This document shows, piece by piece, positions 2,115-50,200 of a stretch of DNA of 64,000 nucleotides. Each line of letters opens with the position of its first letter. Position 1 is the first letter of the stretch. The position numbers and the translations under genes were made by a program. The DNA is from Brachyhypopomus gauderio (taxonomy: Eukaryota; Chordata; Actinopteri; Gymnotiformes; Hypopomidae): contig NC_135218.1 of assembly GCF_052324685.1 (NCBI RefSeq), positions 17,051,979 through 17,115,978 of the forward strand, written 5' to 3'. Below the pieces are notes generated by a model. That model was given only the letters and a program-made list of their open reading frames with translations, had not been told where the DNA came from and searched no databases.

Positions 2115-3324
2115 ATAGGTTGTTCTAAACATCTTGGAGAACTAATCACAGATCTTCTGTGGCGCAGTCTTGCTCCACTTGCTTGTCCCTTCATGCAATC
2201 CCATACACATTCAGTGATGTTGAGAACAGGGCTGTGTGTGGGGGTCTCATCACCACCCCCAGAACTCCTTGTTCCTCTTTACGCTGAAGATTTGTGACAG
2301 GAGTTCTTAATGACATTGGCTGTATGTTTGGAGTTGTTGTCTTTCTGCAGAGTAAATTTGGAACTAGTCAGACACTTCCCTGATGGCATTTCATGAGGGA
2401 TAAGTAACTGCCTGTATTTCCCTGCACAGAGGACACCATTCGTCCTGACAAAATGCCCAATAACTCCACTGGCTGAAACTTGCAAGAAGCCTCCATCATG
2501 CTTCACTGCTGCCTGTAGACACTCATTACTGCAACAAACCGCCTCCCGTTCCAGCCGAACATTTCAAATTCTGACTCACCTCCAAGTACCCGCTTCCCTT
2601 TTCCTGCCCCTTATTTCCTGTGTTGTCTTGCATGGTCAGTTGAGTCACTTAGCTTTTTTACTACGTTGAAGTATTGGCTTTTTGTCTGCAATTCTTCCAT
2701 GAAGAGTACTTCTGACCTGACTTCCCTGAACAGTAGAGGAGTGTAACCGAGTCCCACTGGTTACTGCCAGCTCTGAGCTGATGTACTGCTGCACATGTTC
2801 TGATTTCATCTGCTGCCCTTGGCTGACCGTGGCGTCTACAGTCCTCAACGCTACTGGTGCTTCTTCAAAAGATCTTGTACACTACCAGTCTGCTTAAAGT
2901 CTTTGCCTGGAAGAGACTCACGGATGTAGTACAACTATGACTTGTGACATGAAGCTTCCACAACCTCACCTTTGAGTCCCAGTTTAATGCCTCTGATGTG
3001 GCAGTTACTGCTTCAGTTAAAGACTGTGTTTCAGACTACATATGAACACGATGATCATTATCAACTGTTTGTTATAATTGGTTAATCACACACAAGACTA
3101 TAATTTTACAAAATCCCTGACTTTGTGCAAGTGCTTCCAGAAGACATTATGCTGTTTTGAAGGCTTAGGGTGGTCACAGAAAATATTGATTTAATTTATA
3201 TTTCCCTTGTTTAATTCACTTAGCATTTTGCTAATTGGCAAAAATAAACCACCACCTCTATTTTTAAATCATTCTTATTTTTCAGCATTTTTCCACACCT
3301 GTCTAAACCTTTTGCACAGTACTG
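2115..3324 (-). mobile_element. Decayed Tc1-like DNA transposon
   Basis: The sequence from about 2115 matches, from memory, the minus strand of a common fish Tc1-like transposon. The right end, CTTTTGCACAGTACTG at 3309-3324, is the typical outer inverted-repeat sequence of that family (CAGTACTGTGCAAAAG on the other strand). The left inverted repeat could not be found, so the left boundary is the start of recognisable similarity. The element lies in a dlg1 intron. Its coding part is broken by many stops and small deletions, so it should be immobile. Confidence 0.8.
2150..2960 (-). pseudogene. Tc1-like transposase pseudogene
   Basis: Minus-strand fragments recall Tc1-family DDE transposase. 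One piece (2645-2848) includes a VSQGQQMKSE stretch and then SGTRLHSSTVQGS and LHGRIADKKP, recalling the helix-turn-helix region before the catalytic core. A second piece (2279-2506) carries the LQKDNNSKHTANVIKN stretch near the second catalytic Asp region. The pieces lie in different frames with stops between them and no intact start, so this is a pseudogene. It has no link to dlg1 function. Confidence 0.75.
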
Positions 3325-4952
3325 CACACACACACACCCCAGTCTTAGGTTGGATCCTAGGTATAGTCCACAGTAGACCATAGTATGAAACACTCTTTCA
3401 TTCCCTAAAGAGGAGGGCTCATGTGTATTTAGTGGCACATATAATATCAGGATTAAAGCTACAGTACATTCATGCCCCCTCTGCAGTCTAATACAGTACA
3501 AGCACATAATAAATATATGATTAATAACAAGGTCAGTGTAAGCAGTTGCCCTGGAGAGACAATTTGTGGTTCATTACATTACCAGTACTGATGTATCAAT
3601 AGAAGTTCCCATAAGCTCTCAGGCCTCCATAACAATTTTATTCATAAATAGTTACTGACTCCTGTGTGGTGGGCTGAGGATCAGGAAATCACTACATAGA
3701 AGATTACCCTGCAAGTGATCATGTCGAGAGACGGATTAATCTGGATTAGGGGTGGGGGGGCTATCACACACACATCTCTGCAGGTTTAGGGTGAAACACT
3801 TTCATCAGTGCTACATGAATGGGATGAAGAACAGATGACTAGCCAAAAACTAGCCATTTGGTAGACTGCTTATTCCCATACAGCCTTCCCACACTGGCTG
3901 GTACAACCAGCGTTTTCCCTTTTTGTTAACTTGGGAGAATTTGACCAAATGCACATTAATCTTTTTTTTTTTTTGGACGGCCACCTCATTTTTCCAACCT
4001 CGCCCTATGTGTGCCTGGTTCAACACATCTAGATGAATTCAAGGCAGAGGTTAATATGGCAATAGCAATTAACAAGCAAGGCACTGTGCAGCCCTCGTGT
4101 ACAGACTACAGTGACTGTGCTCCAATCAGGGCTCAGATAAAGCATCTCACACAAGCCAATCGACGACAGACCAAGAACCAGGGTCAACCTAATCAGATAT
4201 AGCCTACAGTAAACTTAAATGACAACCATAGGATGCATTCCAGAGGTGTGGATGCTGTACTGCTGTACACTATAATTAGATATAAAATCTACAACCACCC
4301 CCCCTCCCCCGGCGCAAACAGACTAAACATGCAAAAAGTGTCCTTCGTAAATTAAGAAATAATTAAATAATTCCTTCCTGATATAGTATCGGCTTATATA
4401 GTATGACCAAAAAATGACCAATTGTTCATGAGGGTGAGTTTTATTCGCAGTAAGCTTCCTTCTATTTAACACCAGTTATGGCGTAAAACAGTCAGAAACG
4501 GGCTTGAAACCTTGATCTTGATTCAACCTTGACCTGTTGAATTCAACAGTATAAAGCTATTACCACGAACACATTAAACTATGTAAATGAATTTCCACTT
4601 TGCTTAGGTTGCCCGGCCTCAAGACAAATTTCATCATTCTCTATTTCAGCTAAAAAAAAATGATGCATTACCACCTGGACGAATTAAGGAGCTGTGCGGT
4701 TGTGATTTCCGAGCTCCAATCACAGCCCCAGACTCGGTAAGAGCTCCACGTCTGAATCGCTGAATGCAAATACCTTCCGCAGGTGTGGAGCGCTGCATGA
4801 CGTTGTTGGAGCAGCCTGCTGACTGTGTGGGTCACGTCCTGGTAAGGTCAAAACCTGTTCCACCATCTCACACAGCCGAAACGTGCTGCTCAGCGCACGA
4901 TGCCAAAAACAATCAGAACACCATTAGATTTGCTCCACTTGCAGACTCTTAC

Positions 4953-5253
4953 CTATTAGGGCTTGAAAGAGGGAGCTCTGAAACACGCCGATAACTCTCT
5001 CAACGGAGTGTCGGAGGTGAGGATCATCAGTCTGGCTCAATTTAGCCCTGTATTCCTCCAGGAGCCGCAGCGCTCTCTGAGTGTCTGAAAAGTTTATTTA
5101 AGTTAATGGAAGCAAAATAAACGACGATTATATATATAATATATATATATAAATAATTGTTTTTGCATATGAAAATGCAAAGCGGTTGAATACAACATAA
5201 AATCTAAAGTTGTAAACTACAATTGTAATCTCACCTTTCTTCCTTACTGGCAT
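4953..5253 (-). CDS. dlg1: dlg1 5' end: start exon and L27-domain exon (partial gene)
   Basis: This is the 5' coding end of discs large homolog 1 (SAP97), a MAGUK scaffold at cell junctions and synapses. The start exon (5253-5235) encodes MPVRKK and ends in phase 1 at a GTGAG donor. The next exon (5084-4953) follows a TTTTCAG acceptor and encodes [18 protein letters not shown] onward through [10 protein letters not shown], ending at a GTAAGAG donor. That is the DLG1 L27 domain, which mediates hetero-oligomerisation with CASK- and MPP-type partners. Joined, the exons give 50 codons plus one base, and the split codon would begin Asp as in other DLG1 proteins. The ATG has A at -3. A CCCCAG just upstream suggests the ATG exon follows a 5' UTR intron. 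PDZ, SH3 and GK exons were not found in 1-4900 and should lie further left. The fish paralogue (dlg1a or dlg1b) was not resolved. Confidence 0.9.
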
Positions 5254-5399
5254 GATGAATCCTGGGGATTAAATCATACACTGGCAAAAAGATGGTAGGG
5301 AGTTGTTTGAATCATTTGAAAGTATTATTATTCGTTTTTATCCTCCGTTCACCAGATTAATACGTTGTATGCGCGGCAACTGGCACGATGCTCCCTGAA

Positions 5400-5950
5400 T
5401 GGAGCAAACTGGTCAAGATGCAATAAGAGGGTAAAGGTTAAACTAAAAAAATCCTTGCAACTCTGCTACCAATTCTATTAAGCAGGGCGACCTCCTGTCA
5501 CAACTCCGTAATCAACCCTGAACAAAAACTTTTGACTTTAGCTCGCGGAGATGAATGAATGGGACAGACCTGTTACAGCCAGCGTGCACAACGACAGAGA
5601 CAATATGGGAAAGAATATGCCCAAACTATTCTTGCAGAAGCAGCACAGGCAGCAGTAATAAACCAGTCTTCTCCGAATGGTATGCAAAGTTGCAGGCAAT
5701 CAACACGGTGCACTCTGGGTGGGTCCCATATGCCAGAATCCAGTGTTATGCCGCTTCCTTGATCCGTATACGTTCCCAAACAAAACTTCTTTGATCCTGC
5801 CCCCTCTACTTTCTACCAGTGTTTCCGAAAATCCTAACTTTCCTCCAAAATGGCGACCTTGATCGGGAAACAAATCACATGATCCGCCGCCTTCCCCGTC
5901 CGTTCAATAGAGCCTCCATGTAGGTGCAGGACGGTTCGGGTTAAGACTCG
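5400..5950 (-). promoter_or_regulatory. Probable dlg1 promoter / 5' UTR region
   Basis: This stretch upstream of the dlg1 start is richer in CpG than its surroundings. It holds an AAAATGGCGACC motif at about 5847-5858, which is YY1-like (GCCATTTT core on the minus strand). The splice acceptor just before the dlg1 ATG implies that a non-coding first exon starts somewhere here. The exact start site cannot be read from sequence alone. Confidence 0.4.
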
Positions 5951-6761: not shown

Positions 6762-6984
6762 TTTATTTAAAAGTATGACAGTTTGACATAAGTTAACACT
6801 GTCAGGAACAATGTCAGTCCTGTTTGGCCCTGTTGGTGATGCTGGTCTCTGAAATGTCATTGTCAGTTGTAATAATCTTGTGATAGGATGAATGCCTGTC
6901 ACATGATTCCACTGTCATGCCAGAACTGGGTGGAGTGAAGCTGGCCTCAGCTCAGAGCACAGTGGTCTCTTTTTCCTGCAGCAC
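6762..6984 (-). CDS. Possible terminal exon of an unidentified gene
   Basis: On the minus strand a good pyrimidine-rich acceptor (TTTGTCTTTTAG) is followed by a short frame, VLQEKETTVL, and a TGA at 6952-6954. About 185 bases downstream is an AATAAA signal (6762-6767). This is the layout of a last coding exon with a 3' UTR, and the end TTVL would fit a class I PDZ ligand. I do not recognise the protein and found no convincing upstream exons between 7000 and 17000, so it may be chance. Confidence 0.2.
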
Positions 6985-8102
6985 CTAAAAGACAAAGCAG
7001 TTGTTCAACAGGCTTTCCATTTGCAGCAAAGGCAAAGAGGACTAATGACAGAGGTGATCGTGCTAGCAAACTAGAACACTTCAAGGGAAAATTTGTTCCT
7101 GGTCCAATTTCTGTAGTAATGCTATCCTATCGTGTTTGTTTAACCTATCCTAAGAGCCTCTCAGACCATAATTCAGTCTAAAACTTTATAATGGACCCTT
7201 ATTAAAGGTCCTGGGAAACTGAAACACTTGGACGATACTCAGAAAGGTCAATAAAAGTAAAGCAAATTCATGAATGTATTTAGTCAATGCAGGTCCCTTA
7301 AGACCTCATATAAAGTGGTGGAGTCATAACTTGTAATGCAACTATGAATACTTGCAGAAGTATGACCATTAGTTTAAATCTAGTTTGTGCCTTAGAGAAC
7401 TGTCACCCAACTTTTGTTTAATCAAATTGCTCTATCTTTGTCACGTTTTTTTGTTCTTGCATTACTAACTGTGCCTGGTGGAGGTGAGTTTCTGCATCAT
7501 GGCTATGTCTTAAATCAGAAAAAAAGTTCATAAACTATTGGTATCGTGTAAACATAGACTTGGGAAATGTATGTTTTAATTTAAGTAGTATTGCTTTAAA
7601 GAATACATGGGAGTGTCGAGTCTGTTTTTGTTTCAAGAAATATCAAGCAGTAAAGTAGTAAGTAGAGTTCTCACTCTTTGCCACATTTGTATGCTCAGGT
7701 TTGAACCAGGGGTTTAAATTATTTATTTCCTTCAGGATAGTGTATGTTTTGAAAAAAATTGTTTCACTATAAAAAAACATTCTGTTCTCAGTCTAGACAT
7801 CTGGATCAGACAGTGCTAGAAATTGTTGCTCATTTGCAAAGAGGCTCTGACCTTTGGAATTAGAGTCAAATGAAAGGGTGTTTACTCTGAAAGCCTCTCA
7901 TTTATGCTGAGATACAGTAGGGTGGGCTCTTTATTTCTTAGTTGAAATATTTTATGTTCAACACTTTCACATTTTTTGAGGGGGCGGGGGTTACTTAGTC
8001 AAGTAACCAATTACGTAATATTTGAATTTGCTTAAGACAGACATGCTATCTCTGAAATAATGTGGATGAACATGTTTATAGCAGGTGTGTTTCGGGTTTA
8101 TG

Positions 8103-8130
8103 TCCCATCTACAGAAAACAGTAGATGGGA
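8103..8130. repeat. Perfect 10-bp-stem hairpin
   Basis: TCCCATCTAC and GTAGATGGGA are perfect inverted copies around an 8-base loop. No gene or element boundary explains it. Confidence 0.5.
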
Positions 8131-8224
8131 GAACAAATCAAATGTTTGAAAGCAATCACTAGGTGGCACTGTTTCACATTTTCAATAAATTGTCCCATTG
8201 AATGGTGTCATTGGGATATTTTCT

Positions 8225-8300
8225 TTGGCGGCCGGATTGAGATTATTGCCAGGCGGTGTCTGGCGTGGGCCGCATGTTGAACACCCCAGGTTAAGCATGT
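8225..8300. repeat. Fragment of a dispersed fish repeat
   Basis: The stretch has GGCGGCCGGATTGAGATT, then GGGCCGCATGTTGAAC and CACCCCAGGTTAAG. These resemble, from memory, one end of a dispersed non-autonomous repeat common in fish. It is short and diverged, and the family is not assigned. Confidence 0.35.
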
Positions 8301-11299
8301 CTTCCATGGAATTCCATGTTTAAATGAATTGCATCCAAATTATGCGAATGTACTTTATCATAGAGAACAATGTATTCTATTATCATAACAGTGGCATGTC
8401 ATAAAAAATGCAGCATTTCATATCTAGCACAGAAGTTCTTTTAGCATTCCACTCATTAGAGCCCACTGTGGGAGAGATGTGGGTGGATTTGTAGGTCACC
8501 GACCAACAAAATCTACGTCTGTTCAGAGTAAACAGTCTGACGCCTCCCTGACATAATTCAGCAGTCTGCATGTGCACCACATTTGTGTCAGATTTATACA
8601 AGGCATACTTTTGTTGTTTTAACTGATGTTTCATATCAGTGGCATGGTATGTTTGGTTGTGCAGGATAAAGCCCTTGCCTGACTGGCATTTCCATAAATG
8701 TTTTCTGAAAGCACATTTCAGAGGGAAATACGTCTGTGGGAAAAAAAACTCGAATGCAATATCTGTGAACACCATGCACTGTTTAGAGTAATGGCATTGA
8801 CTCAAAGAGTGATTTGAAAAAAGCAGCACCTGTCATGCAATCTGCAATGAAAACAGATCTGAGGGGAAACCAATCTACTGCGCTACAACACACGAGTGCT
8901 TATTCAGCATCTTGAAGTGTGAGTAATAACTACACTGTGCGTCCTGCAGACCTGGCACATCCTGAGGCAAGAAAAGCGATTTGAATATAGAGGTGGTGAC
9001 ATGAGCAGAACGATGTTATGGTTGGATCACACATCTCTTGGCAATCACTCAAAGCACTAATTAGTGATCCAAAATGACTATGTATGTTGTATAACATAAA
9101 TACGTCTGCACATATAAAACATGCAGATGACCAAACAGTGGTTATTTTAATGATGTGCATGATGTTAATATAATGAAATTAAGCAGAGGATAAAATGTCC
9201 ATGTCAAAATGCACAACTGTCATATAGTCAGTGATGCTAATCCTTTGTATTACTGATAATAAAGAATTTGATTTTTTTGCAGCCATTAATTGACGGGTGT
9301 TAATTAGGCCTGTCACAGATCACTGATAGACAGTATGGACTTATTGAATATATTCCTATAGCCTTTGTGCTTCTTTGAAGCAGTACTGCACAATAGCAGC
9401 TGTCACCAGGGAGGGCCTTCAGGGGGCAACATTGAGACACTGAGATGTTTGTCAAGGGAGAAAAGACCCATCAATTGCATTCAGATAAGCAATGGGATAT
9501 AATGACGTATTATAAGTATTATTCAAACCATAGAATCACAGAAAACCATAGAATCCTCTGTCATGTTCAGAAGCATGCCTTGACTTCAAATGACAGGAAT
9601 GAAACTGGACGAATTTCAATTTTGTGTAGTTATTCTGAGCATTTAAGCACTCTAGAACTGTAAAAGAAATCCTCCAATGCTAATACACACTTATGGAGTC
9701 TGGCTTTCCTCACTGATCTAACTGAACATCTCACCTTGTAAGTAATCCGTGTTTCATATCCCAAAAGATTAGGTTCATTCACATTGTTGGACTGATATCT
9801 TTAATGCACCAATTTTGATTACACTGCTCTTTTATTTCAGATATTTACAAGTACAGAGTGAAATATAAATAGAGAATAACAATACCCAGTTCTCATCCCT
9901 ACTCAGGTGCTTGCAAGGTTTCCTCAGCCTGGCAGACTCTGCTGTCGACCTTTGATCATGTGAAAGCCTCATGCTGCCTGTGCTAGCTAGTCAACACTGC
10001 CACTAACCTTAGAGTAGCACACAGGACACCAGTGCTTATTCTAGTGGCACATGTTATTACCATCATTGATGTCCCCTTTTATCTTTTTGGTTTTTTAGAA
10101 GGTCTGGTTGAAGAGGGTGAAGGAGAGACAGGTCTTCCTTCTTGATAAAAAAATTCTTCTTCTGGAAGAATTGTCCAAAATCTTAAGCAAATAATTTATG
10201 TAACTGCATTTCTATATTCTCTAAAGGTAAAGGCCCTTTTGTCCTCATTCAACTAGTCTTTATGTCATTTTTAAGTGTTATATTATTAGATCATCTCTTT
10301 TTATTCAATTCCCGCTTGACTTTCTTTTCTATGAATGTCATAAGTTTCCAGGTGAGTAACTACAGTATGCTTAGAGACAGTCAGACTATAATTTAGTATA
10401 TATAGATATTCTATATATATATGTAAAGATATTCTTATATTCAGAGCTGATGAAACTGCAGTAATCCCCAACTATAGTGCAGAGCCTTGGCACACGGCCT
10501 AAGCAGAGAGAGGCAATCAGAACAGTAGTGAGTACGTGTTTATTTATGTTTATCATTTTGTAATATTGGAGACGTTTTGGTGTTTTCTGTAGAGAACATC
10601 TTTCTTTGTCACTGCCATGGATCTGATTTGATCTTTCCTTTGGATGTCTGCCACTTTTACACTTAGCAAATGACCTCAGGGGTATTTAATTAAAAGAGGA
10701 AACTGGACACATGAGACCTCGTTTCATTTAGGACTTGTGTAAAGTTTAATTTGTGGAAGGTCAACTAAGACTGTATAGCACATTTTCTGGAGGGGCAACG
10801 CTTGCTTATTGTCAAGCACAGGCTCATCTAATAATGATGTGATGAAACTAGCATGACTCTCATTGTTATCATTTCTGGTTAACCAATCATCTGCTTAGTG
10901 AACACTGACCCTCAGTGGTGAAGTATACATACTACATAAGCTCCTTGAAAGGAAAATGTGGACCGATCCTTCTCACCATTAATACTACAACTGAGAAAAA
11001 TTCATGAGTAAGAGCTAATGAGTAAGAATTTACAGCAAAGGGTTAAAAAAAGTGACAGCCAAGGTTGTCTTGTAATTACAGGTGCTCACTGTTATAGTAA
11101 TCATCTGAATTGAAACAGTTGAGTTGCTATTTGTAGAACATATTTGCCAGTACAGAAATTGAGACCAGTCTTATTGATTTCCTTCTAATGAAGGGTGCAA
11201 CCTGTCCAACATCCATGGAGCTAGATGGATCATTATCCTGACTCACTGCCCTCTGTTGGTAGCATAAACAACAACTCTGGATTAACTCTGAATTGTTGA

Positions 11300-40130: not shown

Positions 40131-40459
40131 CTGTCTTACTGACACAGTAAGTGATAATCCAATAAACCAGCTGAAATGAAAATAAAACAAAATATCAGAA
40201 ACAGAGGCATTAACCCAACACTAGTTATATTTTCCCATATCTGCACACTCTATAGGAACATAAATCTTACACCCTGTATTGGAACTCCTACCGACACCAT
40301 AAGATTAATTTGACTAATGTGGACAAAACACTTGACACAAGTATGAATAAAAAGTACTATAAACATATATTTTTTGTATCTTACTGGGTCGAGGACTTTT
40401 GAGGTACACCAAAGTTTATGACCTACACAGACAAATAAATTGGAGATCCTGGAACATAT

Positions 40460-40806
40460 TGTGACGTTGGGTGCGAGGCGAAGGACGAGACACAAATCCA
40501 GCTTCACAGGCACAACGACACGTTTTAATGCATACAGGTTATTGCGCAATAGCGCACGCTAAACAGACACTTACACACGTAACGTGTAGACTCAAACATT
40601 AGACAACGACGAGCACAAGACACTGCGCGAACGCACATTAAATAGACAGACCACATCAACCCCACGTGATGACGAGACGAGCCACAGGTGAGACGGATAA
40701 TGACAAGACGCACCCGCACCCACGGAGGTACACAGACGCAGACGAATAGACGCAGACAACGTTAACACACGCCCCAAAGGAAGGGTTCGGGGACCGTAGC
40801 GTGACA
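40460..40806 (-). repeat. 3' LTR, apparently identical to the 5' LTR
   Basis: Same length and, as far as I can compare by eye, same sequence as 42270-42616. The TATA-like box is at 40638-40644 and the polyadenylation signal at 40524-40529. Identity of the two LTRs means the insertion is recent or the copies were homogenised. Confidence 0.85.
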
Positions 40807-40948
40807 GACGCCCCCACCAAGGGCACTACCCGTCCCGGGGTGCCAACAGGACTGAGTGCCCCGAACCCACGTCGATGGGCGGATCTGAAGCGCCCAGTCC
40901 TGCGTCTGGGGGATGACCGCCCTCGGCGGAGAGTCCGCCACGCACAGT

Positions 40949-42238
40949 CTAGAACACCCTCCCTGGGAAGACGGGGGAAAACACGTTAGACACATTTAAC
41001 GGGACATTCACAAACACACACACAGGTACACTTACACATAGTGGCACGAAAGGGAAAAACGGGTTAGGCACACAAATGGGAAGACTTACGAACACTGGCA
41101 TACACAAACATGAAACAGGCGCCAGACTACGCGCCAGGAGTAGAGCGATAAGGGGAGAGAGATCGGGAGCTGCCGGTGCTGCAGCGGACGGTCCTCCTCC
41201 GGTCCTCGCAGCAGACCCTCCGCGGGGTGCAGCGCGACCGGCGGACGTGCCGGGTGCAGCGCGACCGGCGGACGTGCCGGGTGCAGCGCGACCGGCGGAC
41301 GTGCCGGGTGCAGCGCGACCGGCGTAGGCGCCGGGTGCAGCGCGGCCGGTAGACGCCCCGAGCGGACCGCCTGGGAGATCCCCTGCGGTCTCCATCTCCT
41401 CCTCCTCTTCTCCTTGGTCCCACTCCATGGACTGCTCCGGGCTGCCACCCCGGGAGCAGTCCATCCTCTCTCCACCGTAACGATCGGAGGATGGGACCAT
41501 CTCTGGTGTCCACCTCCCCTTCACAGTCCCAGCGGAACACTCAGAGGGAGGCGGACTGCCTTCCTCCTCCGACTCGAACTCCTCCACCTCCTCATCGTAG
41601 CCCACAGCGGGGAAGGAGCGTTCTGACGGAGGGTAATCATAGTCTTCCTCCTCCTCTTCCTCACCGTAGCCCACGGCCGGTGCGTTGCATTCGAACGGAG
41701 GGTAATCGTCGTCGTCGTCCTCCTCCTCCTCCTCGCCGTAGCCCACGGCAGGAGCGGAGCACTCGGACGGTGGGTAGTCCTCCTCGTTCCCCTCTCCCCC
41801 ACCATAATCCACTGTGGGGGCGTAGCACACGGAGGGAGGGTAATCCTCCTCCTCGCCGTAGTCCACGGTGGAGGCGGAACAAACCGAGGGAGCCTGATCC
41901 TCCTCTTCCTCCTCGCCCTCCGATTCCTCCCCCTCGAACTCGCTCTCAGGGGTCTTCTCTGTGGAGCAGAGTTCGAGGGAGCCGACCCTCAGGGGCGAGA
42001 GGTCTCTGGTGGGAGAGGGGTGTCGCTCCCTCCACATCCGCACCGCGGTCTGGCGGAAATACTCCGCCAGTTCCCCAGTGCTGGCCTCCCGAGCCCGGAG
42101 CAGCATGATGCTGCATAAAGGGTCCTGCTCCATAAGTTCGGGAGTAACGGTGGCGGCGCGGTGTTGGGCAGGAGCAGAGGCATGGCGGCGCTTGCTGGGC
42201 TTCTTGCCCTTCTTTGGCCGGGTGGTGTAGCCTGGCAT
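40949..42238 (-). CDS. Single ORF of the LTR element: 429-aa acidic repeat protein
   Basis: The frame opens 31 bases after the 5' LTR and is uninterrupted for 429 codons. Visible parts are: a basic N-terminus (residues about 7-20, with KKGKKPSKRR, nuclear-signal-like); a segment with LLRAREASTGELAEYFRQTA (about 46-65); five to six copies of a repeat built as PSxCSAxxVxYG followed by a Glu/Asp run and DYP (about 115-240); a Ser/Gly-rich linker; a 9-aa repeat GRAAPGTSA (about 299-335); and a Pro/Val/Cys-rich hydrophobic tail. It has no protease, RT or integrase motif and no zinc knuckle. It may be a reduced Gag or an unrelated passenger ORF. The last about 60 residues may be read-through of a normally untranslated 3' part, since they end at a splice-acceptor-like CCCGTCTTCCCAG. 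Confidence 0.7.
   Translation of the reverse strand: MPGYTTRPKKGKKPSKRRHASAPAQHRAATVTPELMEQDPLCSIMLLRAREASTGELAEYFRQTAVRMWRERHPSPTRDLSPLRVGSLELCSTEKTPESEFEGEESEGEEEEEDQAPSVCSASTVDYGEEEDYPPSVCYAPTVDYGGGEGNEEDYPPSECSAPAVGYGEEEEEDDDDDYPPFECNAPAVGYGEEEEEEDYDYPPSERSFPAVGYDEEVEEFESEEEGSPPPSECSAGTVKGRWTPEMVPSSDRYGGERMDCSRGGSPEQSMEWDQGEEEEEMETAGDLPGGPLGASTGRAAPGAYAGRAAPGTSAGRAAPGTSAGRAAPGTSAGRAAPRGGSAARTGGGPSAAAPAAPDLSPLIALLLARSLAPVSCLCMPVFVSLPICVPNPFFPFVPLCVSVPVCVFVNVPLNVSNVFSPVFPGRVF
41226..41355. repeat. 27-bp coding minisatellite inside the LTR element ORF
   Basis: The 27-bp unit GTGCAGCGCGACCGGCGGAC plus GTGCCGG is repeated about five times, three copies being identical. A 27-bp period keeps the frame and encodes a 9-aa repeat. 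Because the unit contains no stop, other frames are open too, which produces several shadow frames. Confidence 0.9.
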
Positions 42239-42269
42239 GGCTTGTTGTGTCTCTGACGGCTCGTCGTTC

Positions 42270-42616
42270 TGTGACGTTGGGTGCGAGGCGAAGGACGAGA
42301 CACAAATCCAGCTTCACAGGCACAACGACACGTTTTAATGCATACAGGTTATTGCGCAATAGCGCACGCTAAACAGACACTTACACACGTAACGTGTAGA
42401 CTCAAACATTAGACAACGACGAGCACAAGACACTGCGCGAACGCACATTAAATAGACAGACCACATCAACCCCACGTGATGACGAGACGAGCCACAGGTG
42501 AGACGGATAATGACAAGACGCACCCGCACCCACGGAGGTACACAGACGCAGACGAATAGACGCAGACAACGTTAACACACGCCCCAAAGGAAGGGTTCGG
42601 GGACCGTAGCGTGACA
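42270..42616 (-). repeat. 5' LTR (TATA and polyadenylation motifs visible)
   Basis: Read on the minus strand the LTR holds a CACGTG E-box, a TATTTAA TATA-like box (42448-42454) and an ATTAAA polyadenylation signal (42334-42339) about 115 bases further on. This is the expected U3-R-U5 order. The inverted tips are TGTCACG and CGTCACA. Confidence 0.85.
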
Positions 42617-42621
42617 CATAT

Positions 42622-45229: not shown

Positions 45230-45480
45230 GTTTTGGATTGTAAACATGAGAGCGAATACACACACACACCTGGTCATGGTTTGTAAACGTGAAAGTGAAT
45301 ACACACATACCTGTTCATGGTTTGTAAACGTGAAAGTGAATACACACATACCTGGTCACGGTTTGTAAACGTGAAAGTGAATACACACATACCTGGTCAT
45401 GGTTTGTAAACATGAGGGTGAATACACACATACCTGGTCATGGTTTGTAAACATGAGGGTGAAGACACACATACCTGGTC
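45230..45480. repeat. 41-bp minisatellite, about six copies
   Basis: The unit TTTGTAAACGTGAAAGTGAA continued by TACACACATACCTGGTCATGG is repeated about six times with few differences. The leftmost copy has extra CA and GAGAGCG instead of GAAAGTG. Confidence 0.9.
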
Positions 45481-49543: not shown

Positions 49544-49995
49544 GAAAGGCAAGGCTCGGCTCGCACAAGTGATGTTCAGTTGCGTCTCCATCATTACACG
49601 CGCAACACGCTTAGCATGACAATTATAATGGAGACAATACAGATCAGTTATAGAGCCTTAATGGAACCCTTTATGATCCATTAAAAAGTGCAGACAGTTA
49701 GCAACTTTGCTGCTTTTATCTGCTTACCTTAGGTATGTTTACTTCTGTTGTGGGAATCATGTCCAAATGCACTCTGCCAACAAATAAAATGTTGACTCGT
49801 GCGTAACTGTTACGCTCACAGAACACGGCAGGGAAACAAAAACAGGAATACATTATTTTTAACGTGTTCTCATTCCACCCCTTGAAGGTGGTATATGGTA
49901 TATTTATAAATATACTAAAATGATCTGTGGTGTGTATAGAAGCCTTAGGGAGATCCTAAAACAACAGGAAAAAGAGTAGGATACTCTTAAGACAA

Positions 49996-50200
49996 ACACA
50001 ATACACAACTACTGATGCTCTGAACCCAAACATAACACAACCACTGATGCTCTGAACCCAAACGTAATACATAACCACTGATGCTCTGAACACAAACATA
50101 ATACACAACCACTGATACTCTGAACCCAAATGTAATACATAACCACTGATGCTCTGAACACAAACATAATACACAATCACTGATGCTCTGAACACAAACG
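49996..50200. repeat. 34-bp minisatellite, about six copies
   Basis: The unit CACTGATGCTCTGAACCCAA continued by ACATAATACACAAC is repeated about six times. Copies alternate between ...AACCCAAACGTAATACATAA and ...AACACAAACATAATACACAA, suggesting a higher-order two-unit repeat. Confidence 0.9.

Follow-up and report, generated by a model that had tools for sequence, protein, structure and literature searches.

The stretch of DNA considered here, called the window throughout, comprises 64,000 nucleotides of the Brachyhypopomus gauderio genome (C8:17051979-17115978) and contains at positions 40460-42616, equivalent to C8:17092438-17094594, an element of 2,157 bp that is bounded by long terminal repeats (LTRs) and whose sense strand is the minus strand of the window. 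In a self-alignment of the window the two LTRs (5′ LTR, 42270..42616; 3′ LTR, 40460..40806), each 347 bp long, are 100% identical. They read TGTGACG...GTGACA on the plus strand and TGTCACG...CGTCACA in the sense orientation, and the 5-bp target-site duplication CATAT flanks the element at both ends (40455..40459 and 42617..42621). The GC content of the element is 60% as compared to 41% for the window. On the sense strand the LTR carries a TATA-like sequence, TATTTAA (LTR nt 163-169; 42448..42454 in the 5′ LTR), assigned by motif and by its fixed distance to the primer described below, and a polyadenylation motif, ATTAAA (LTR nt 278-283; 40524..40529 in the 3′ LTR); an AATAAA-like motif is found near the equivalent alignment columns in most of 20 aligned leaders. 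A G-rich candidate polypurine tract, proposed from position and sequence only, adjoins the 3′ LTR (40807..40818). The interior contains an open reading frame (ORF) of 429 codons on the minus strand (MPGYTTRPKKGKK...FPGRVF; 40949..42238, stop included; ORF calls and family comparison), which starts 31 nt past the 5′ LTR. No reverse transcriptase or integrase was recognised in the element, neither by a Pfam search with the ORF nor by a regular expression for reverse transcriptase motifs, which over the window and all fetched loci matched only once, in an element neighbouring a relative at another locus (L037). The first-pass annotation had described identical 347-bp LTRs with an intact CATAT duplication, LTR promoter and polyadenylation motifs, a single clean ORF and no polymerase genes, and all of this is borne out by the LTR alignment, the motifs, the ORF without Pfam match and the negative motif search in the window.

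Judged by motif matches, the host genome (796,539,105 bases searched in 840 contigs) holds hundreds of relatives of the window element: the LTR end together with the adjoining primer-binding site (PBS) is found at 786 exact places and its reversed control at none. Using the LTR as query gave 3954 candidates, the best 40 of which comprise six exact copies, including the window's own two LTRs, and 34 that are 99-100% identical. Searching with the ORF yielded 158 matches from the best 98 of 9409 candidates, falling into identity tiers of about 98-100, 93, 73, 69 and 64%; no second copy of the element was detected within the window by self-alignment. A close set of 15 loci with 16 elements was compiled, in which L012 contributes two units and L010 and L011 are counted apart. 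Matching 5-bp duplications flank 14 of these 15 loci, the exception being L027, in which the 3′ LTR is cut; LTR pairs are 0-5 substitutions apart and the PBS is identical in all 16 elements. Five of the 20 close regions stand outside this set: L009, which is arranged like L010, L013 and L014, which are the halves of one interrupted copy, L026, which consists of one LTR and a partial interior, and L024, a solo LTR with the duplication ATAAT. Of 20 more diverged loci fetched (L029-L048), the 15 with two LTRs that were checked all have 5-bp duplications, the remaining ones being L034, L035, L039, L047 and L048. Their LTR pairs differ by no substitution at five loci, by one at three, by 2-4 at five, by 7 at one and by 13 at one. 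As the LTR pairs of diverged loci differ by so few substitutions, several subfamilies appear to be young together. The earlier view of a very young insertion belonging to a multi-copy, recently mobile family therefore agrees with the near-identical LTR copies and with the 5-bp duplications at other loci. Since different loci carry different 5-bp duplications, a gene duplicated by the assembly is excluded as the source of the repeat, and neither of the other two outcomes named beforehand as damaging, many LTR differences or lack of a second copy, was found.

The genome search suggested at the outset, for full copies, solo LTRs and longer relatives with the same LTR, also returned LTR pairs 5.4 kb (L009/L010) and 3.07 kb (L011) apart, which were considered as autonomous long copies and rejected. 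Each consists of the short element interrupted by nested, presumably hAT-like inserts, which have short inverted ends and 8-bp duplications on either side. These inserts contain no long ORF, and the longer copies examined are not autonomous. The inserts are located at L010:1597-2571, 3076-3455 and 3606-5581 and at L011:1585-2559, and one of them interrupts the 3′ LTR. L010 and L011 have in common the first insert, in which they are 99.8% identical, and also their outer flanks. As their duplication and flanking letters agree, they seem to represent two alleles of a single locus or duplicated copies of it. At L012:501-4515 two units are arranged in tandem as LTR-interior-LTR-interior-LTR, sharing LTRs within a single outer duplication, GTGAT.

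How would reverse transcription of such an element be primed? The PBS AACGACGAGC (nt 2-11 past the 5′ LTR; 42259..42268) is exactly complementary to GCTCGTCGTT at LTR nt 193-202 (42415..42424), 30 nt from the first base of TATTTAA, and this putative self-primer would form the first 10 nt of the mRNA if transcription starts where the TATA spacing predicts. The element thus has by sequence at least 10 nt of predicted 5′ mRNA complementary to a site adjoining the LTR, and a survey of plant elements took at least 10 bp of complementarity, starting 0-5 bp past the LTR, as its criterion for self-priming (PMC6317226). Matches of 10 nt within the 30-nt slot for the start occurred in 19 of 20000 Markov-simulated LTRs, and anywhere in the LTR in 204 of 20000. 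Similarly, only 2 of the 1449 14-mers from the interior of the element match in the start slot, both of them overlapping the PBS, and 7 match anywhere in the LTR. Among close elements the self-primer is present in the 5′ LTR of 15 of 16, with a spacing of exactly 30 nt in 13 and of 27 nt in two. A primer match of at least 10 nt was found at 18 of the 20 diverged loci; the spacing is exactly 30 nt in 16 and 31 nt in one, and in one the TATA motif was not found. Genome-wide, TATTTAA followed by the primer occurs at 3143 sites in the G type of the primer and at 1980 sites in the U type, with reversed controls at zero, and the spacing is exactly 30 nt in 98 of 100 listed G-type sites, although the search pattern allowed seven spacings. 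Moreover, the predicted fold of the leader pairs the first 10 nt exactly with the PBS.

Comparison among relatives provides further evidence for this helix. When primer and PBS were required to be 130-160 nt apart, one position of the helix was found as G-C at 681 loci, as U-A at 461 loci and mismatched at three, the reversed controls being zero in all cases. Either matched pattern is identical to its own reverse complement, so that both strands return the same sites and a matched locus enters the count only once; as each of the two mismatched types is the reverse complement of the other, one mismatch search covers both. All three mismatched hits have a primer U opposite a PBS C. In the diverged element at L035 both partners have changed, to AAAGACGAGC in the PBS and to GCTCGTCTTT in the primer, and pairing is kept. 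Pairwise differences between aligned columns amount to 1% in primer and PBS and to 30% in the intervening stretch, and RNAalifold with 20 leaders places the primer-PBS helix as the outer stem with one compensatory pair. As comparative evidence the switch between G-C and U-A speaks clearly for self-priming of reverse transcription in the host, although it is counted in copies and not in independent events. It could alternatively be imagined that the PBS serves an unusual tRNA or tRNA fragment and that its match to the LTR is fortuitous; in favour of this, a match of 10 nt is short. Such an origin seems quite improbable, given the fixed 30-nt spacing in the listed LTRs and the paired switch at sites some 146 nt apart; in addition, tRNA primer sites by convention begin with TGG, and the PBS does not.

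The ORF was compared between subfamilies with one representative of each of four groups, drawn by eye from 21 sequences; L034, L045 and L046 were left out of this codon test as their 3′ ends lie outside the common frame. The four representatives differ at synonymous sites by proportions (pS) of 0.29-0.43. Over the whole ORF the ratio of nonsynonymous to synonymous substitution rates (dN/dS) is 0.25-0.40 in the six comparisons, and the same alignments read in the other two frames give ratios of the corresponding proportions (pN/pS) of 1.03-1.47. For residues 338-429 dN/dS is 0.13-0.24 in the six comparisons, and for residues 1-105 the signal is weaker in two of six (0.46 and 0.57). For 15 young sequences pN/pS is 0.43 when pooled over all pairs. 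Codon comparison thus indicates that the ORF bears the mark of purifying selection between subfamilies. Differences in ORF length among copies are mostly changes of whole-codon repeats; in L017, L045 and L046 the C-termini are shifted and in L034 the frame runs on. N- and C-terminal types are, as judged by eye, mixed between subfamilies, which looks like recombination. These data also bear on the simplest alternative, an autonomous retrotransposon that has simply decayed and in which the ORF is open through chance or youth. Identical LTRs would agree with it, as they leave little time for decay, but the four representatives have diverged considerably and share a frame under constraint, and the diverged two-LTR loci are equally short, measuring 2,084-2,333 bp in 15 of 15. 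Furthermore, among 100 listed LTRs of each type, same-strand neighbours 1-3 kb apart form 19 pairs in the G type and 20 in the U type, whereas neighbours 3-8 kb apart form only three and one, respectively. Simple decay is therefore an extremely improbable explanation.

What kind of protein is encoded? AlphaFold2 with an alignment of nine sequences gave a mean predicted local distance difference test (pLDDT) score of 45.5, nearly all of residues 81-360 being below 50. A small helical domain is predicted for residues 33-72 (42023..42142), with block means of 81-93 for residues 31-70 and 64 for residues 71-80, and a hydrophobic beta hairpin is weakly predicted near the C-terminus (residues 377-413, 41000..41110; block means 44-72). 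In between, tandem-repeat finding located acidic repeats rich in tyrosine and proline with units of 69-72 nt (41579..41845) and 27-nt repeats encoding GRAAPGTSA units (41225..41349), the copy number of which varies among elements; at pH 7 the stretch from residue 81 to residue 296 carries a charge of about -61. Pfam contains no family for the window ORF at E up to 10 and none for nine members at E up to 1, the PDB sequence search returned no match, and Foldseek found none at E≤0.001 in the PDB (26 at E≤10) or among viral models (92 at E≤10). The ORF is not recognisable as Gag or capsid by sequence or by the low-confidence model, in the low-confidence part of which a capsid could hide. It could be a highly diverged Gag, making the family an ordinary Gag-only semi-autonomous element that feeds itself and a partner, as proposed for RLG_Quinta. 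The ORF occupies the position of gag, 31 nt past the LTR, its N-terminal part is helical, it has basic stretches and is under purifying selection, and with BHIKHARI-1 and RLG_Quinta there are Gag-only precedents. Set against this are the negative database searches, the lack of a CX2CX4HX4C knuckle in all 21 ORFs, and a model in which some 40 residues of confident helix are followed by mostly low-confidence, acidic and repetitive sequence, leaving little for a two-lobed capsid, so that a Gag appears unlikely. Equally doubtful is an origin of the ORF by capture of a host gene, or a product that counteracts silencing or drives transcription, either of which would be kept for helping the whole family rather than its own RNA. 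Long acidic repeat regions resemble activation domains, and the ORF combines such a region with a small basic and helical N-terminus. On the other hand, there is no relative in Pfam or the PDB, and a function in trans should let most copies decay, whereas 30 of 37 listed one-piece matches reaching at least residue 425 are free of internal stops, these 37 being the best-scoring matches and as such biased toward intact copies.

Taken together, the sequence evidence makes it very likely that the window element belongs to a non-autonomous family of LTR retrotransposons that is self-primed and whose ORF is under purifying selection; this judgement covers the reading as a whole, including priming of reverse transcription by the element's own RNA, the mode known from the Tf1/sushi group. 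Several observations weigh against it. We infer the mRNA start at LTR nt 193 from the TATA spacing, and the cut that would free the primer is likewise inferred. The complete leader shows no exceptional stability (z -1.04, matched by 28 of 200 shuffled sequences), and the covariation term of RNAalifold is +0.39, that is, no bonus. The 681, 461 and three loci of the helix count are copies and could derive from a single ancient switch or from very few. The primer match is missing from the 5′ LTR of two diverged elements (L037 and L048) and one close element (L027), and the five interior 14-mers that match the LTR outside the start slot all derive from one stretch near the 3′ end. Comparisons of the window ORF with single close copies rest on tiny counts, with pN equal to or larger than pS in some (8 versus 2 changes for L012a). 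Finally, pol genes did not turn up next to the PBS when coordinates of 100 listed sites per PBS type were compared with the best 150 hits per profile: none of the comparable listed pol hits (0 of 30 for the G type, 0 of 52 for the U type) has a PBS 1.5-8 kb upstream on the same strand, and none of the comparable listed hits of the gag profile DUF4939 (0 of 17 for the G type, 0 of 33 for the U type) has one within 3 kb upstream.

A pol-encoding partner is required by logic, since the element itself is without pol. Profile matches indicate that pol genes of the Tf1/sushi type are plentiful in the genome: the best 150 of 1765 candidates for SH3_Tf2-1 (PF24626) are all above the cut-off, many in frames of 1100-1700 aa, and the best 150 of 1339 candidates for DUF4939 (PF16297) were scored. 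A comparison of subsets, with 75 and 89 of the 100 listed sites and 27 and 51 pol hits, did not find any pol hit with the PBS either. As judged by the spacing of neighbouring LTRs, almost every element with this primer appears to be short, so that the donor could use a different primer or be rare. The position of the 5′ LTR of one pol copy (L049) was guessed, and the 1.5 kb taken there contained no recognisable LTR or self-primer. The suggestion of the first-pass annotation that the family moves through a partner element thus stands in so far as the family was recently mobile; the partner itself is deduced, none sharing the PBS being among the comparable listed hits. At L037 a partial Ty3/gypsy pol with the motif YIDDILIYS lies on the minus strand at 6768-9415, about 1 kb from the element copy; its frame is broken between two open pieces, and the part examined contains no matching primer. 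On contig C1 of G000, LTR and pol positions in the regions C1:5777893-5791395 and C1:5811670-5911636 recur at constant offsets (9817/9819 and 4248 bases), and as the offsets are constant, segmental duplications are suggested. A different short LTR element (TGTCACA...CGTTACA) occupies L034:7627-9129; it has LTRs of 382 bp that are 99.7% identical, a TATGA duplication and an interior of 739 bp in which no open stretch exceeds about 100 aa, and its final LTR letters are nearly repeated directly past the LTR. Elsewhere in the window there are two tandem arrays, at 45234-45480 (41-bp unit, 6 copies) and 49980-50199 (34-bp unit, 6.5 copies), and Rfam at gathering thresholds has no match anywhere in the window.

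For a non-autonomous, self-primed family with a protein of its own the following life cycle could be envisaged. The LTR promoter would start the RNA 30 nt past TATTTAA, and the first 10 nt of this RNA would fold back onto the PBS adjoining the LTR. Reverse transcriptase and RNase H would be borrowed from an autonomous element, the likeliest donor being one of the Tf1/sushi kind, and the borrowed enzyme would, in the manner described for yeast Tf1, cut the RNA past the pairing and extend the end so released. Particle and integrase would come from this donor as well. The ORF protein would act on the RNA that encodes it, for instance by binding it via the basic N-terminus and the helical domain and carrying it into the particles of the partner. 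Such action in cis, in binding or packaging of its own RNA, is put forward tentatively on the basis of selection and domain make-up, as a freely shared protein acting in trans should not stay intact copy by copy. With similar reserve it may be proposed that a self-primed family lacking pol has kept its own RNA-handling protein, which is not Gag, through several subfamilies and borrows everything else. If true, this would be a retrotransposon strategy that consists of only an RNA-handling protein and a built-in primer, with the rest borrowed. Loss of genes is the rule among non-autonomous elements; the four subfamilies compared here have kept one unrecognised protein under purifying selection, and several of them contain LTR pairs without a single difference at the same time. 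By what means an element that has no enzymes keeps its protein from serving others becomes a testable question.

Among known systems the closest in priming is the Tf1/sushi group (Tf1, Tj1, sushi-ichi and the plant Tcn1), whose members have a PBS complementary to the 5′ end of their mRNA, as predicted here (PMC6317226; PMC4600332); the mechanism was described for Tf1 and proposed for Tj1 (PMC4600332). In contrast to this group, the window element is without pol or chromodomain integrase and has a different protein in the position of gag. It is not filed in the group because it has no pol, and it works like a member at the priming step. The zebrafish families BHIKHARI-1 and BHIKHARI-2 (crestin) are likewise short vertebrate LTR families with a single ORF, recently mobile and presumed to depend on a partner, no pol-bearing copy being reported for the zebrafish reference genome (PMC10996621). 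The earlier remark that such elements are unusual in vertebrates is therefore fair, but with BHIKHARI-1 a precedent exists (PMC10996621). Unlike the ORF described here, that of BHIKHARI (617 aa) is predicted to encode a Gag, of lokiretrovirus kin, in which a coiled coil and a capsid domain are present; proviral copies are far fewer (25 for Bik-1), and the consulted parts of the description do not mention self-priming (PMC10996621). RLG_Quinta of wheat is also non-autonomous with an intact protein ORF and has lineages in which the ORF diverges and recombines; its ORF, however, is clearly Gag with an additional domain of unknown nature, it resides in plant centromeres, and its autonomous partner RLG_Cereba was identified via shared PBS and LTR ends (PMC11302176). 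TR-GAG is another type of Gag-only element. The internal domain of TRIM elements is not known to have coding capacity. These small non-autonomous LTR elements are described by their short internal domain (PMC6934838), whereas the window element keeps a 1.3-kb ORF under selection, its 429 codons and the dN/dS between representatives setting it apart. No description of this LTR family was found among the papers listed by the literature searches, which did not extend to subscription papers, so that absence is unproven. As an element that keeps a protein, is self-primed and lacks pol, it is a new variation on known kinds of LTR element.

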